From Balneolales bacterium ANBcel1 (GTDB taxonomy: Bacteria; Bacteroidota; Rhodothermia; Balneolales; Natronogracilivirgulaceae), in NCBI GenBank assembly GCA_029688905.1, contig JARULB010000006.1, positions 186,001-250,000 of the forward strand: a DNA stretch of 64,000 bases. Reading direction: 5' to 3'. Under the pieces are notes generated by a model. The model searched no databases, was not told the DNA's origin, and saw nothing but the letters and a program-made list of their open reading frames with translations. Shown one piece after another: positions 43,536 to 49,407 of the stretch. The stretch's first letter is position 1, and each line of letters opens with the position of its first letter. The position numbers were made by a program, and so were the translations under genes.

Positions 43536-44279
43536 TTACCGAAGCGAGTCTTCCAGAGCCAGCGACGCGTCGCTCTTCTCATCCCTGTACTTGATAATCA
43601 GGGCGCAGCTCATTTGAAATCCGGACTCCCGGGCCCATGACAGACGTTCTGAAACCGGCCGGGTACCCGAAACCACCACGGCCCGCTCGGGAATGGGCTC
43701 CCCTCGCTCCAGAACTCTTTCATTGACACAATCGTACACCGGAACACCCTGTGACAGGACCACCCCCGGAGCGATAACCGCTCCTTTCAAAACCTGAACC
43801 CCTTCAACCAGAACCGCGCCGGCACCGACAAATGCACCGTCCTCCACAATTACCGGCGACTGATTCACCGGCTCCAGAACTCCGCCAATCTGTACGCCCG
43901 CCGACAAATGCACCTTCTTGCCGATCTGCGCACAGGATCCGACCAGCACATGGGAGTCGATCATAGTTCCTTCATCCACATACGCTCCGATATTCACGTA
44001 GGATGGCGGCATGATGATGACCCCGGAGGCAACGTACGAACCGGTGCGCACCGAGGTACCGCCGGGAACCACCCTTACATTTCTGTCCAGGGTGAATTTC
44101 TGCGGAAGCAGATTGTGCTTGTCGACAAACGCTTCATGTTCCACCATCTCTCCGGCCTTGAACGCCGAAAGAATTGCCTGCTTTACTTCGGTGTTTGCCT
44201 TCCAGGTGCCGTTTTCCTTGTTCGCGCTGCGAACCGTTCCTTTTTCCAGTTCCTGAAGAGTCGTTTTCCAGTCACTCAT
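43536..44279 (-). CDS. dapD: Tetrahydrodipicolinate N-succinyltransferase (DapD)
   Basis: Acylates 2,3,4,5-tetrahydrodipicolinate in the acylase branch of lysine/diaminopimelate synthesis. At 247 residues it has the helical N-terminal domain and a left-handed beta-helix of hexapeptide repeats (VRTGSYVASGVIIMPPSYVNIGAYVDEG and IGKKVHLSAGVQIGGVLEPV). The VEDGAFVGAGAVLVEGVQV segment and PIPERAVVVSGTRPV follow. The motif set is that of the succinyltransferase. The pathway then needs DapC and DapE; a DapC candidate lies just downstream and dapE is not in view. Confidence 0.94.
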   Translation of the reverse strand: MSDWKTTLQELEKGTVRSANKENGTWKANTEVKQAILSAFKAGEMVEHEAFVDKHNLLPQKFTLDRNVRVVPGGTSVRTGSYVASGVIIMPPSYVNIGAYVDEGTMIDSHVLVGSCAQIGKKVHLSAGVQIGGVLEPVNQSPVIVEDGAFVGAGAVLVEGVQVLKGAVIAPGVVLSQGVPVYDCVNERVLERGEPIPERAVVVSGTRPVSERLSWARESGFQMSCALIIKYRDEKSDASLALEDSLR

Positions 44280-44441
44280 ACACGTTGTTTTCTTTAAGAT
44301 TTAGATTTCAGTTCACCATCCCGGTGTGTGGCTCCGCAAGTCCGATATACGCCCGGATCACACAGGAGCTGTGACAGCCGCTTCCGGCTGGAACCGGGGA
44401 TTTACAATTTGTTGATTGCCGGCAATTGAAGCGATTGTCGA

Positions 44442-45362
44442 TCAGCTTACCGAAAGACCGGCATGACTTCTTTTTCCATGCCACTCACGAACCTCTTCGG
44501 AGAGTCTGATGAGCCTGTCCAGGGAGTTCATGTCATCGGCATGCAGCGGAAGCTTCACATTGGGGGTTCGGATACGCCCTTCCCTGTGCATAACGGCCTT
44601 GGCAGGAACCGGGTTGGGAGCTACGAACAGCTCATTGCTGGTACGTTTCCAGAACGTTCGGTCTTCTTCCGACAATTCGCCTGCAAGGGCCATTTCGGAA
44701 TAGAGCCTTGTAGCTGCGGGCCAGACATTTCCCGCCACCGATACCACACCGCAGGCGCCATGCGGGGCAAAATCAGGAAGCATGAGGTCATCACCGCTGT
44801 AAAGCTGCACATCACCGCAAACCGCTTTGTATTCGCGAAAATCATCCACCGACCCGCTGGCCTCCTTGATCGCCCAGAAATTCTTGTGCGTATGAAGCCG
44901 GGACACCGCGTCCAGATGCAGCGCGATACCGGTGCGTTTTGGAATATTGTAGAGCATCACCGGCCGTGTAACCAGATCCAGCAGTGTTTTAAACCAGTGA
45001 TACTGCCCCTCCGGACCCGGTTTTGAGTATATCGGGGTTACCATCAGATAGGCATCCACCTTTTGTGATTCCAGAAAATAGAGCCACGAGGCCACGCCGG
45101 GCAGATGATGTCCGCCCACTCCGACCATGATCGGTATGTCCAGTTTCAGCGATACGGTATATCGAACAATGAGTTTACGCTCTTCCTCATCCAGGTTCAG
45201 GGATTCTCCGGTACTGCCGAGGATCAGAACGCCGTTTCCGGCCTCTTCCTGTTCACGCAGGAGTCTTTGAAGGCCTTCAAGGTCAGGGCGCCCCGAATCG
45301 GTAAGAGGTGTAATCAGGGCGGTCCAGAGCGGGTTGTTCAAACGGTTATTCACGTGCTTCAT
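44442..45362 (-). CDS. dapA: 4-Hydroxy-tetrahydrodipicolinate synthase
   Basis: Condenses pyruvate with aspartate semialdehyde in the first step of the diaminopimelate branch. The ATG at 45362 gives 306 residues and starts 11 bases after the dapB stop. The barrel shows GSTGESLNLDEEER, the catalytic-triad Tyr in VMLYNIPKRTG and the Schiff-base Lys in FWAIKEASGS. A longer frame runs back to 45422 through the dapB end but has no similarity. The 162-base dapD-dapA gap holds only a small AGCCG/CGGCT hairpin near 44375. Confidence 0.93.
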   Translation of the reverse strand: MKHVNNRLNNPLWTALITPLTDSGRPDLEGLQRLLREQEEAGNGVLILGSTGESLNLDEEERKLIVRYTVSLKLDIPIMVGVGGHHLPGVASWLYFLESQKVDAYLMVTPIYSKPGPEGQYHWFKTLLDLVTRPVMLYNIPKRTGIALHLDAVSRLHTHKNFWAIKEASGSVDDFREYKAVCGDVQLYSGDDLMLPDFAPHGACGVVSVAGNVWPAATRLYSEMALAGELSEEDRTFWKRTSNELFVAPNPVPAKAVMHREGRIRTPNVKLPLHADDMNSLDRLIRLSEEVREWHGKRSHAGLSVS

Positions 45363-45373
45363 TGATTTGCTGT

Positions 45374-46105
45374 TTAGGAGGAAAAATTCGATTGCCCGGC
45401 GGCGGGGCCGGTACGCTTCCAAAGTTTGTCGAGGGCGATCTGCTGGATATCGTACAGTCCGGGCGCCATTTCGTGGCGATCGGCAAGAACCTGCCGGGCG
45501 GTCCAGAGCGCGCCTGAGGCAAATATGCTTCGGTTACGGGCCGAGTGTTCCACCGTGATCTCTTCAAAAGGGGTTGAAAGGGTAAGCGAATGTTCGCCGA
45601 CAACGTCTCCGGTCCGTTCCGAGGTAACCTCTACCGGCTTGGCCAGCCATTCTTTCCAGGCCAGTGCGGTTCCGCTGGGGGCGTCTTTCTTTCGGGTGTG
45701 ATGGACTTCGTGGATGGCGTATGACCACTCATCGTACAGGGAATCGGCCATGCTCAGGATGCGGATAAGCTCGTGCATGATATTCATGCCCAGGCTGAAA
45801 TTGTTGGCATGGACCCAGATCAGGCCCTGTTCCCCGAGTTTCTCCGAGAATGCTTGCCGGCCACCCGGCCAGGCGAAACCGGTAGAGCCGGTTACAACGG
45901 GAATTTTGGCGGCAAGCAGTTCCGGAATAGCTGCTACAAATGGGTCTCCGGGAAGAAAACAGATGGCAATATCGTGTCCGGCAAGTTTCGATGCTTCGGG
46001 CGGGTTGTCAATATCATAGACCGTGACCTGGATTTCCTTTTTTCCATGGGCCAGCTTCAGTACTTCGCCACCGGTCCGTCCGGCGCCGACCAAAGCGATG
46101 TTCAT
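45374..46105 (-). CDS. dapB: 4-Hydroxy-tetrahydrodipicolinate reductase
   Basis: Reduces the DapA product with NAD(P)H. The 243-residue protein starts MNIALVGAGRTGGEVL, a Rossmann motif with the R that follows GAG as in many DapB proteins. The catalytic EVHHTRKKDAPSGTAL segment is intact, with the second His and the Lys. VTGSTGFAW is the mid-domain motif. A methionine two codons earlier (46111) is an alternative start. It is the first gene of the minus-strand dap group and diverges from the B12-sensor operon across a 640-base gap. Confidence 0.95.
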   Translation of the reverse strand: MNIALVGAGRTGGEVLKLAHGKKEIQVTVYDIDNPPEASKLAGHDIAICFLPGDPFVAAIPELLAAKIPVVTGSTGFAWPGGRQAFSEKLGEQGLIWVHANNFSLGMNIMHELIRILSMADSLYDEWSYAIHEVHHTRKKDAPSGTALAWKEWLAKPVEVTSERTGDVVGEHSLTLSTPFEEITVEHSARNRSIFASGALWTARQVLADRHEMAPGLYDIQQIALDKLWKRTGPAAGQSNFSS

Positions 46106-46111
46106 CTGCAT

Positions 46112-46745
46112 GATTACAATTGCATTTCAGATTCAGGCGGAGCAGCCGGGAAAAAGATTACGCACAGGCCGCAAGGTTTCACTGCAGGCAGCAGAACTCA
46201 TCCGGTTGATCCGCCGATTACAAACGATACAAGAGAGGGGCCACTTGGAAAATCGGCTGCTCGACAAGAAGGGCAAAAGAAGTGGTTCGCTGCATGCCGG
46301 CGAATTCACTCCCAAAGCACTCCACGATCAGCATTTGAATACACTTCGTGACAGTCCCGGGGATTCAGCCCACGGTCCCAACACACCGGAAGGCCACTCT
46401 CCCGGGATGTTTCGGCAAATGCCCCCTGGCCATCGGTCACTGGCAAAAACTGGCGCCTTGCGATAGTTACCTGGCATCTGCTCCTCTTCAGGTTTTTGAT
46501 AAACTTAGCAAGAATTGCCGTCAACTCAAAACAAAAAACGCTTGTGTCACTACCAAAAATGGTTATTATAAAGCAGGTTACCTTGACGATAAGAATGGCA
46601 ATTACCACTCGTTACCCGCAGTCGAATACAAGATGGAGCGGGTGGACGGCATGAATTTCGGAAGCCCGTTATACTTTCAAATAAAGAGCAGGAACCCGGG
46701 ACCTCCTCGCGCTGAAACGGACCCGCAATTGCAGATACTGTTCAG
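46112..46745. other. Divergent 5' region between dapB and the B12-sensor operon, no supported gene
   Basis: 634 bases that should hold promoters for both directions. The 46490-46740 part is AT-richer and includes a GGTTATTATAAAGC stretch at 46561-46574 that could contribute a -10 box for the plus-strand operon. No -35 match at proper spacing stands out. Open frames here (for example 46348-46749 plus and 46306-46608 minus) show no family features, and I do not accept them. A stretch at 46340-46379 on the minus strand loosely resembles a cobalamin riboswitch core but lacks the other conserved parts. Confidence 0.4.
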
Positions 46746-47780
46746 ATGAACATTGCAGAAACCAGAAAACTGAAGGATTTTATCGAAACAAAGCGGGCTG
46801 TTCTGCTGACCGACCTTTTATTCGATCTGCAGCAAGAGTCGCCCGGTTTCGATTGGGATAATTATCTCTCCTTCTACATGGGCCACCTAAACGAGTCGCT
46901 TTCTTCCAATAACACGGCTGTTTTTTCAAAATTCCTGAGCTGGTCGCGATCGGTCGGCCGGCACCATTCCATCAAGGCACTGGAAGCAGACACCATCACG
47001 AAGAAGCTTGCCGCACTTTCGGGCAGACATCTTCCCCGTGAATGGCAGGAGGAGTTTATCCGTTTTCTGGAAGAGAGCCGGTTCAGGTCGGAAAAAGCGG
47101 AGCCGGAGGCACAGTCGTTTCTGGAGGTCGATTCCGGGCTGGAATCGCTCGCTTCGGAGTATTTTGAAACCCTGATCAGCGGTGACCGAAACAAGGCCTC
47201 AAAACTGGTGATGGATGCTGTTGCCGGAGGGGTACCCGTCAAAGACATCTATCTGAAGGTCTTCCAGCCGGGATTGTGGGAGCTTGGACGACTTTGGCAA
47301 ATGAACCGGATTTCGGTTGGTCAGGAGCATTTTTTTACTGCGGCCACCCAGATGATCATCTCCAGATTATATCCGAAAATATTCAGCACCGAGAGAAACG
47401 GAAAGCGGATGATGGCTACAGCAGTGGGTGGAGAACTGCACGAAATCGGCATCCGTATGGTCTCCGATTTTTTCGAGATGGATGGATGGGACACCTACTA
47501 TATCGGTGCCAACTGTCCGGCCGATGAATTGCTCGAAGAGCTTCAGAAACAGAGACCCGACCTTCTGGGCGTTTCCGTTACCCTGGGTTCGCATATTGGA
47601 ACGGCCCATAATCTCATCCGGCAGATTCGTGATGTTCCGGAGCTAAGCGGACTAAAAATCCTGATTGGTGGCCGTGCTTCCCTGGACCACCCGGATCTTT
47701 TTTCCAACATGGAGGCCGACGGATTTGCCCTCGATGCGGAAAGTGCGGTTACCACGGCAAACGAGGTCACGGGATCATGA
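46746..47780 (+). CDS. Cobalamin-binding sensor protein with CarH-type W-x9-EH motif
   Basis: A 344-residue soluble protein. Residues about 1-120 are helical and resemble an N-terminal sensor-type bundle. Residues about 130-215 form the B12-binding cap domain, with W184 followed by nine residues and then E194-H195. This W-x9-EH spacing is the signature of the CarH/LitR family of adenosylcobalamin photoreceptors. Residues about 222-340 form the Rossmann B12-binding domain with E230-L-H232-E-I-G235 (the DxHxxG motif, E in place of D), S277-V-T and GG at 308-309. H232 should be the lower axial cobalt ligand. There is no MerR DNA-binding domain. The residue after W184 is Gln, where Thermus CarH has the His that takes over cobalt after light. 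It overlaps the kinase gene by four bases. Confidence 0.85.
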   Translation: MNIAETRKLKDFIETKRAVLLTDLLFDLQQESPGFDWDNYLSFYMGHLNESLSSNNTAVFSKFLSWSRSVGRHHSIKALEADTITKKLAALSGRHLPREWQEEFIRFLEESRFRSEKAEPEAQSFLEVDSGLESLASEYFETLISGDRNKASKLVMDAVAGGVPVKDIYLKVFQPGLWELGRLWQMNRISVGQEHFFTAATQMIISRLYPKIFSTERNGKRMMATAVGGELHEIGIRMVSDFFEMDGWDTYYIGANCPADELLEELQKQRPDLLGVSVTLGSHIGTAHNLIRQIRDVPELSGLKILIGGRASLDHPDLFSNMEADGFALDAESAVTTANEVTGS

Positions 47781-48766
47781 AAGAAAGCGACAAAAATAAA
47801 TCACAGAAAAAAATAAAAACAGTGGGAACCGGACGTATTCGCCTCACAGACGATCCGTATTACAACAAAATCGCTCACCTGAACAATGAGCTGGCCAACA
47901 TTCAGCGCAGCCTTGCCAAGAGCCGATTCGAGCTGGAAGAGAAAAACAAAAAGCTCGAAGAACAGCATGAAGAATTGTCCCACCTCAACCATCTGAAGAA
48001 TGAAATGTTGGGCATGGCGGCACATGACCTGAGAAATCCGCTGTCCACCATCATGGCACTCAGTGAGCTGCTTCTCGAGGACGATGCCGATGAGTTGAAT
48101 GAGTCGCAGAAAGAGTTCATCGGGGAAATACGCACCTCCAGTGCATTCATGCTCAAGCTGGTCAACGATATGCTTGACCTTTCGCAAATAGAATCGGGCT
48201 CCATCAACATGGAGCTGCAAACCGTTGATCTTGAGAAGATGCTGAAGCGTTCCGTGAAACTGCACAACATGATGTCCGCACGAAAAAAAATCAGAATCGG
48301 CTTCACCAACACCATTTCACCGGAAATTGACGGGAACACCAATGGAACTGCCTTGTTGATTCAGGCAGATCCCGGAAAGCTGGAGCAGGCAATCAACAAT
48401 CTCCTGGGGAATGCCATCAAGTTTTCACCGGAAGATACTGCCATTGAAGTACAAACCGAGCAATGTGCGACACCGGGCAGCCATGCCGACGGTCGAAATT
48501 ATGATGCCGGTGACATTCTGATCCATATACGGGACAAGGGACCGGGGATATCACCCGACAACCAAAAAAAGCTGTTCAAACCTTTTACCCGGATAGCAAC
48601 CGAATCCGGTCACTCTGGCAAAGGTACCGGGCTGGGCCTGGCTATCACCCGCCGTATCATAGATGCACACGGATGGAGTATTCATCTGGATAGTGAGGTC
48701 GGCCGGGGTTCGGTGTTCACGATCCGGATACCGGTTCAAAAGCGGGTGCAATCACATTCGCGATGA
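47777..48766 (+). CDS. Soluble sensor histidine kinase
   Basis: A 329-residue kinase with no membrane segment. Residues about 31-77 are a heptad-like coiled coil (NNELANIQRSLAKSRFELEEK and onward). The HisKA domain carries H83 in MAAHDLRNPLS. The HATPase has the N box (AINNLLGNAIKFS, about 205-217), G1 (DKGPGISPD), F (KLFKPF) and G2 (GKGTGLGLAITRRI). No sensory domain of its own is visible, so the signal probably arrives from the co-encoded B12 protein. No response regulator gene is present in the window, so the kinase is an orphan here. The ATG overlaps the B12 gene stop and its stop overlaps the CPBP start. Confidence 0.92.
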   Translation: MKESDKNKSQKKIKTVGTGRIRLTDDPYYNKIAHLNNELANIQRSLAKSRFELEEKNKKLEEQHEELSHLNHLKNEMLGMAAHDLRNPLSTIMALSELLLEDDADELNESQKEFIGEIRTSSAFMLKLVNDMLDLSQIESGSINMELQTVDLEKMLKRSVKLHNMMSARKKIRIGFTNTISPEIDGNTNGTALLIQADPGKLEQAINNLLGNAIKFSPEDTAIEVQTEQCATPGSHADGRNYDAGDILIHIRDKGPGISPDNQKKLFKPFTRIATESGHSGKGTGLGLAITRRIIDAHGWSIHLDSEVGRGSVFTIRIPVQKRVQSHSR

Positions 48767-49407
48767 TGATGCGTCAGGAGCATGACACTCCCGGAGATCT
48801 GGTCAAGACCTCGTCCGGCGGCCTGGCGCTGATGTCGCTTGCCTCGCTTGTGGTCTATGCCGGCCTTGCCTGGGTACTCGTCCGTTTTTTTCATGATGCA
48901 CCGCCCGCCGCTATGTTTCAGCATGGATTTCCATGGCCGGTTCAGCTTGTCGTTGGCGCGACACTCGGAGTTCTTGCGGCATTGGTTATCTCCCGGATCA
49001 TGTTCCGGACAGCGTTTTCTTCCATTCTGAAGGATTACGCCATCGTGCAAATGCTTTCCGAAATGCGCCTTTCGCGTTTTGACCGACTTCAGATATCTCT
49101 GTTTGCGGGTGCGGGAGAAGAGTTGCTGTTTCGCGGCGCCATCCAGCCGTTGCTCGGCATCTGGGTCACCTCGTTCCTTTTTGTTGCCCTGCACGGATAC
49201 TTCCGGTTCCACTCCATCCGGCATGTGCTTTTCGGTGTGATTTTCTTTGCCCTGAGTGTGGGGCTTGGCTGGCTGTTTCAGTGGGCCGGACTCCTTGCGG
49301 CCATGGCTGCCCACGCCGCTTACGATTATGTGATGCTTGTTTCCGGTGAGCGGTATTCTTTTGGCCGGGACCGTGAGGATGTCTCCCCGGCAGAGCCCGT
49401 ATCCTGA
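48763..49407 (+). CDS. CPBP-family intramembrane protease
   Basis: A 214-residue polytopic membrane protein of the CPBP (CAAX/Rce1-related) family. The metal-binding motif is AGAGEELLFRGAIQPLL around residue 116. The second motif region is FVALHGYFRFHSIRHVLFGV and the third is AAMAAHAAYDY, giving the Glu/His set of an active Rce1-like protease. The start is the first of three ATGs (MMM) and overlaps the kinase stop. Members of this family act in peptide maturation, membrane-protein turnover or immunity to bacteriocins. Tight coupling to a sensor-kinase pair suggests that protease activity is an output or a partner of the signalling unit. It converges on the ABC permease gene. Confidence 0.88.
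   Translation: MMMRQEHDTPGDLVKTSSGGLALMSLASLVVYAGLAWVLVRFFHDAPPAAMFQHGFPWPVQLVVGATLGVLAALVISRIMFRTAFSSILKDYAIVQMLSEMRLSRFDRLQISLFAGAGEELLFRGAIQPLLGIWVTSFLFVALHGYFRFHSIRHVLFGVIFFALSVGLGWLFQWAGLLAAMAAHAAYDYVMLVSGERYSFGRDREDVSPAEPVS

Follow-up and report, generated by a model that had tools for sequence, protein, structure and literature searches.

A photocobilin-like globin-B12 protein encoded beside a soluble histidine kinase in a Balneolales bacterium: a candidate light-sensing module

Photoreceptors of the CarH/LitR type carry a B12-binding fold with a W-x9-EH light signature, possess a MerR HTH domain and act on DNA. The same CarH-type B12 domain, with its Trp, Glu-His pair and axial His, is found in the photocobilins SasPcob and AbDPcob and in photoglobin-B12 proteins, joined to a phycobiliprotein-like globin with a conserved Trp (PMC10979010). 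The B12 domain of photocobilins can sit at either terminus (PMC10979010). These proteins occur with a fused cyclase or with no known partner; the role of the standalone forms was described as less clear in 2024, and the main text of that paper names no kinase partner for them (PMC10979010). Our literature searches for a pair of B12 photoreceptor and kinase returned nothing relevant, and a 2022 survey of photoglobins may already report an association with kinases. Globin and B12 proteins are further associated, also with heme oxygenase, in the BBAG-2 clusters, where they are encoded by separate genes together with pre-PcyA (PMC10151467).

Here, we analyse a locus of Balneolales bacterium ANBcel1 within a stretch of 64,000 nt (the window), in which a single fused protein of the globin-B12 type is encoded next to a histidine kinase. 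This protein shares the B12-binding fold and the light signature with CarH/LitR but has no MerR domain; its N-terminus is a globin and its partner a kinase instead of DNA. It shares the B12 domain residues and the globin with the photocobilins, from which it differs in the N-terminal position of the globin, in the replacement of the bilin-contacting Asp by Tyr, in the absence of about 11 pocket residues and in the adjoining kinase gene.

Gene order and the neighbouring protease

The host genome comprises 3.32 Mb, is 98% complete and has named relatives among the Balneolales. Three genes on the forward strand (Table 1) overlap by four bases (ATGA) at both junctions, in agreement with the initial annotation. 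Pfam matches above the curated cut-offs were obtained for B12-binding_2 and B12-binding in the first product, for HisKA and HATPase_c in the second and for Rce1-like/CPBP in the third (214 aa). They bear out the earlier description of a B12 protein without MerR domain, a soluble kinase lacking a sensor domain and a CPBP protease, and the W-x9-EH motif is present exactly as numbered there (W184, E194, H195). An additional ORF of 133 aa (46348-46749), which overlaps the globin-B12 gene, was rejected as spurious because it lies largely over a lysine riboswitch aptamer on the opposite strand (Rfam RF00168, 84.7 bits, 46307-46496). The aptamer is located upstream of the divergent lysine genes dapB/dapA/dapD (43536-46111).

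Table 1. Features of the globin-B12, kinase and protease genes (positions in the window)
Feature	Position	Strand	Basis
Globin-B12 protein (photocobilin architecture), 344 aa	46746..47780	+	Pfam, PDB sequence search, homologue profile, AlphaFold model
N-terminal bilin-type globin (photoglobin) domain, residues 1-127, six helices in model	46746..47126	+	profile, AF2, Foldseek
Tyr40, position of biliverdin-contacting Asp270 of SasPcob	46863..46865	+	alignment; role of Asp270 from PMC10979010
Trp66, equivalent of SasPcob Trp296	46941..46943	+	alignment
B12-binding_2 helical cap, residues 137-208, with G181xxW184 and E194H195	47154..47369	+	Pfam, alignment
B12-binding Rossmann domain, residues 223-335, with G229xxH232 (lower axial His) and G254xxxP258	47412..47750	+	Pfam, alignment; signature from PMC11796333
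Soluble histidine kinase, 329 aa	47777..48766	+	Pfam, comparison with relatives
Coiled-coil linker signature LNNELANIQRSLAK, kinase residues 35-48	47879..47920	+	conservation among partner kinases
HisKA domain, phospho-acceptor His83 (codon 48023-48025)	47996..48199	+	Pfam
HATPase_c domain	48368..48739	+	Pfam
CPBP/Rce1-like intramembrane protease	48763..49407	+	Pfam

The third product matches PF02517 with 41.8 bits (cut-off 22.4), and the residues E119-E120-R124 (EExxxR), H144 and H184 were assigned by reading. It had been put forward as a third signalling component, so that all three genes would form one functional unit with the intramembrane protease as output or regulator. The overlaps at both junctions are in line with such a unit, as is the order B12-kinase-CPBP-permease in the sister species of the genus (G001), whose contig ends inside the B12 gene. 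However, a phmmer search of about 110 related loci found no CPBP related to the window protease beside the pair. Orthologues or homologues of the protease are present in 26 of 60 relatives: the orthologue adjoins dapB in G003 and G004, in the latter also the same ABC permease, with no B12-kinase pair at either place, while in G008 and G010 the pair is present and the CPBP orthologue lies on another contig. Orthologues within the family thus occupy the place between dapB and the ABC permease, or other places, without the pair. The three-gene order was seen in only two species of one genus, and a functional unit of three genes is very unlikely. The CPBP gene is a local neighbour, co-transcribed by position and outside the conserved module. 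Inspection by eye revealed one different CPBP-like ORF two genes upstream in L003/L033.

The two halves of the globin-B12 protein

In a PDB sequence search, the photocobilin entries 8j2w/8j2x were the top matches to the B12 domains (5e-20), and the full-length AlphaFold model (pLDDT 92.9) matches B12 domain structures of the CarH and photocobilin types. The published SignatureFinder signature for light response comprises GxxW, EH, GxxH and GxxxP (PMC11796333) and has been confirmed by spectra for only a few proteins. The window protein carries all four elements (G181-W184, E194-H195, G229-H232, G254-P258). These positions are invariant in 63 homologues except for G229 (52/63), and the CarH-like Trp, Glu-His pair and lower axial His are all represented (W184, E194, H195, H232). 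Binding of AdoCbl and a response to light are predicted from this residue signature, and a supply of AdoCbl in the host is plausible since the genome contains a cobalamin adenosyltransferase gene. NCBIfam models of corrinoid proteins also gave weak matches, which would fit a carrier of corrinoid methyltransferases (MtaC/MtbC-like) placed beside an unrelated kinase. Their scores are far below the cut-offs (50.9 vs 215, among others), no methyltransferase is encoded nearby, and the W/EH signature, the globin domain and the pairing with a histidine kinase in 67 of 75 loci all argue against such a carrier, which we regard as hardly credible.

Residues 1-127, overlooked in the initial annotation, constitute a bilin-type globin domain according to two profiles, one built from 63 homologues and one from the N-terminal domain, and to structure models. 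The 63-homologue profile matches photocobilins in two blocks of swapped order: the B12 domain, which is N-terminal in the matched photocobilins, aligns with residues ~131-340, and the biliverdin globin, C-terminal there, with residues ~10-106. With the N-terminal-domain profile, the best 60 matches among solved structures were all phycobiliprotein-type globins or photocobilins (CpcA 2.8e-8, SasPcob 4.6e-8). The AlphaFold (AF2) model of this domain alone (pLDDT 89.4) retrieved almost entirely phycobiliproteins in Foldseek, along with smURFP and photocobilins, at a probability of ~1.0 and with weak E-values (0.03 and up). Trp66 is invariant in 63/63 homologues; its counterpart in SasPcob, Trp296, contacts ring D of the bilin as well as the corrin. 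The predicted architecture is that of a photocobilin in the order globin-B12, and the B12 domain can no longer be taken for the sole sensor domain.

Biliverdin is contacted in SasPcob by Asp270 (PMC10979010). The equivalent column, assigned by counting along the printed alignment with the offset checked on Trp61, Glu71-His72 and His108, contains Asp in 58 of 63 homologues and Tyr40 in the window protein, where ~11 residues of the bilin pocket around this position are missing. The window protein forms one branch with L033, L045 and L032 (support 98), and Asp is absent from all four, with Tyr and a local deletion also in L033 and L045 and His in L032. AbDPcob still binds biliverdin, though less of it, after an Asp-to-His exchange (PMC10979010); the missing Asp accordingly counts against a dual-chromophore function and not against homology. 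Neither a heme oxygenase of PF01126 nor an IsdG-like ABM gene was found in the window genome by family searches that matched in control genomes. Most likely, the bilin pocket has decayed in the window lineage and the protein senses through B12 only, while the persistence of W66 and of the globin fold suggests a structural role for the globin domain. Sensing by B12 alone is perhaps true for this lineage by way of decay.

Pairing with a histidine kinase across phyla

A single scan of 85,000 species genomes yielded 321 relatives, of which 80 were kept. The next gene on the same strand encodes a histidine kinase, or in a few cases the N-terminal part of one, in 67 of 75 readable loci. Where the kinase gene is next or second (n=68), it starts within 20 bases in 59 loci and overlaps the B12 gene in 31. 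The tree spans 15 phylum-level groups, some of which may reflect mislabelled bins, and the distances of B12 proteins and kinases correlate with r 0.65 (0/2000 permutations, shared ancestry being uncontrolled). A linker of the form LNNELxNLQREL is present in 64 of 68 partner kinases; among 58 further kinases encoded in these loci, 4 carry it. One of these four carriers, in L083, is a true partner beside a missed ORF; those in L039, L051 and L108, lying directly at the B12 gene, are by position probably partner kinases too. The pair of B12 protein and histidine kinase recurs much more often than chance would allow, and it is strongly supported that it is a real and ancient module. A B12 sensor that signals to a separate kinase, as proposed initially, is still the best reading, save that B12 is not the sole sensor domain. 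Calling the layout a distinct one was too strong, because both standalone proteins and enzyme fusions with the globin-B12 architecture have been described before (PMC10979010). With a kinase gene following in ~90% of loci and a linker signature of its own, the module offers a concrete and testable output for the standalone class of photocobilins and a possible red/green optogenetic kinase.

The window kinase resembles other soluble HisKA/HATPase_c kinases in its intact H-box with the phospho-acceptor His83 and its ATPase domain, and differs from them by the LNNEL-QREL linker. It carries a window-specific insertion of 14 residues between linker and HisKA and lacks an N-terminal domain of ~130 aa that is present in nearly all relatives (e.g. 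L035:7050-7496), for which no Pfam match over the cut-off and no PDB match were obtained. As the usual N-terminal domain is absent, coupling in the window pair could differ or be lost. In three species of Adhaeribacter (L034:6922-7437, L043:6942-7436, L098:6926-7447), the partner consists of the N-terminal domain and the linker and has no kinase domain. The linker is the element common to these partners and the window kinase and would therefore be the likeliest contact site for the B12 protein. The window version provides a natural test of the B12 half in the absence of both a bilin antenna and the kinase N-terminal domain.

Some related loci deviate in their arrangement. Split globin genes are located near B12-kinase pairs in L037, L068 and L083, which in this respect resemble BBAG-2 (PMC10151467). 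A member of the window's own family (L012, 1465-2136) encodes a globin-less B12 protein of 223 aa with a 4-base overlap to a kinase of 398 aa. In L015, the gene after a distant B12 homologue (1399-2445) encodes a CheY-like response regulator (959-1330) and not a kinase.

Proposed signalling and bilin supply

We consider it probable that the first two genes form a two-protein light-sensing kinase module in which AdoCbl photolysis alters the contact with the kinase linker; the light response, the cofactors, the contact and the direction of the effect are what we infer. In the dark, the globin-B12 protein holding AdoCbl would form a dimer of the CarH/photocobilin type. Green or blue light would break the Co-C bond and change the dimer interface around W184/E194/H195, and the altered protein would in turn change its contact with the coiled-coil linker of the kinase and switch autophosphorylation. 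Coupling would depend on the linker segment LNNELANIQRSL. No response regulator is encoded near the pair at the locus, and the cognate one would be encoded elsewhere in the genome. Most likely, the window protein senses green light through AdoCbl and controls the soluble kinase by protein contact; in most relatives, a bilin antenna for red light would be contributed by the globin. Regulation through protein contact has been described in vitro for a standalone photocobilin and a cyclase (PMC10979010). In the case of SasPcob, the sign of the light effect on the cyclase is reversed without biliverdin (PMC10979010), and hence the direction of the effect on the window kinase is not predictable.

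Alternatively, the globin-B12 protein could report the form or availability of cobalamin, or redox state or adenosine, to the kinase in the dark, light being incidental. Binding of B12 is strongly predicted, and, judging by record titles, many host genomes come from sediment or from other places that are probably dark. Nevertheless, this explanation appears unlikely because the adenosyl-pocket residues typical of light-responsive domains and a bilin-type globin are strictly conserved, and because genes for heme oxygenase or IsdG-like proteins adjoin many of the related genes.

Beyond the candidate light-sensing pair of the window, a wider scheme is possible, albeit rather doubtful: standalone globin-B12 proteins may be the input half of a widespread two-component light-sensing system with the LNNEL-QREL linker as dedicated receiver. 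In many lineages the IsdG-like neighbour would supply a bilin carried on the Cys of a CxxD motif in the globin, the window lineage operating with B12 alone.

Concerning the source of the bilin, a canonical heme oxygenase was rejected as a general supplier, since a search of 52 genomes, nearly all of them bearing the module, detected it in only 6. An ABM gene lies upstream of the module in more than 20 loci. The IsdG/HmoB-like ABM gene goes together with a globin Cys located three positions ahead of the chromophore Asp, in 14 of 19 Cys-bearers versus 2 of 43 others (Fisher 4e-8), a comparison that is underpowered on the tree. In the loci combining both (L034, L043, L044, L053, L054, L066, L071, L084, L086, L087, L090, L098, L100, L102), the ABM gene precedes the B12 gene. 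The IsdG-like ABM proteins retain W65 and H75, and heme degradation by them is uncertain because the Asn expected of heme degraders is apparently Ser or Lys. A divergent heme oxygenase adjoins the module in L050, L052, L057 and L081.
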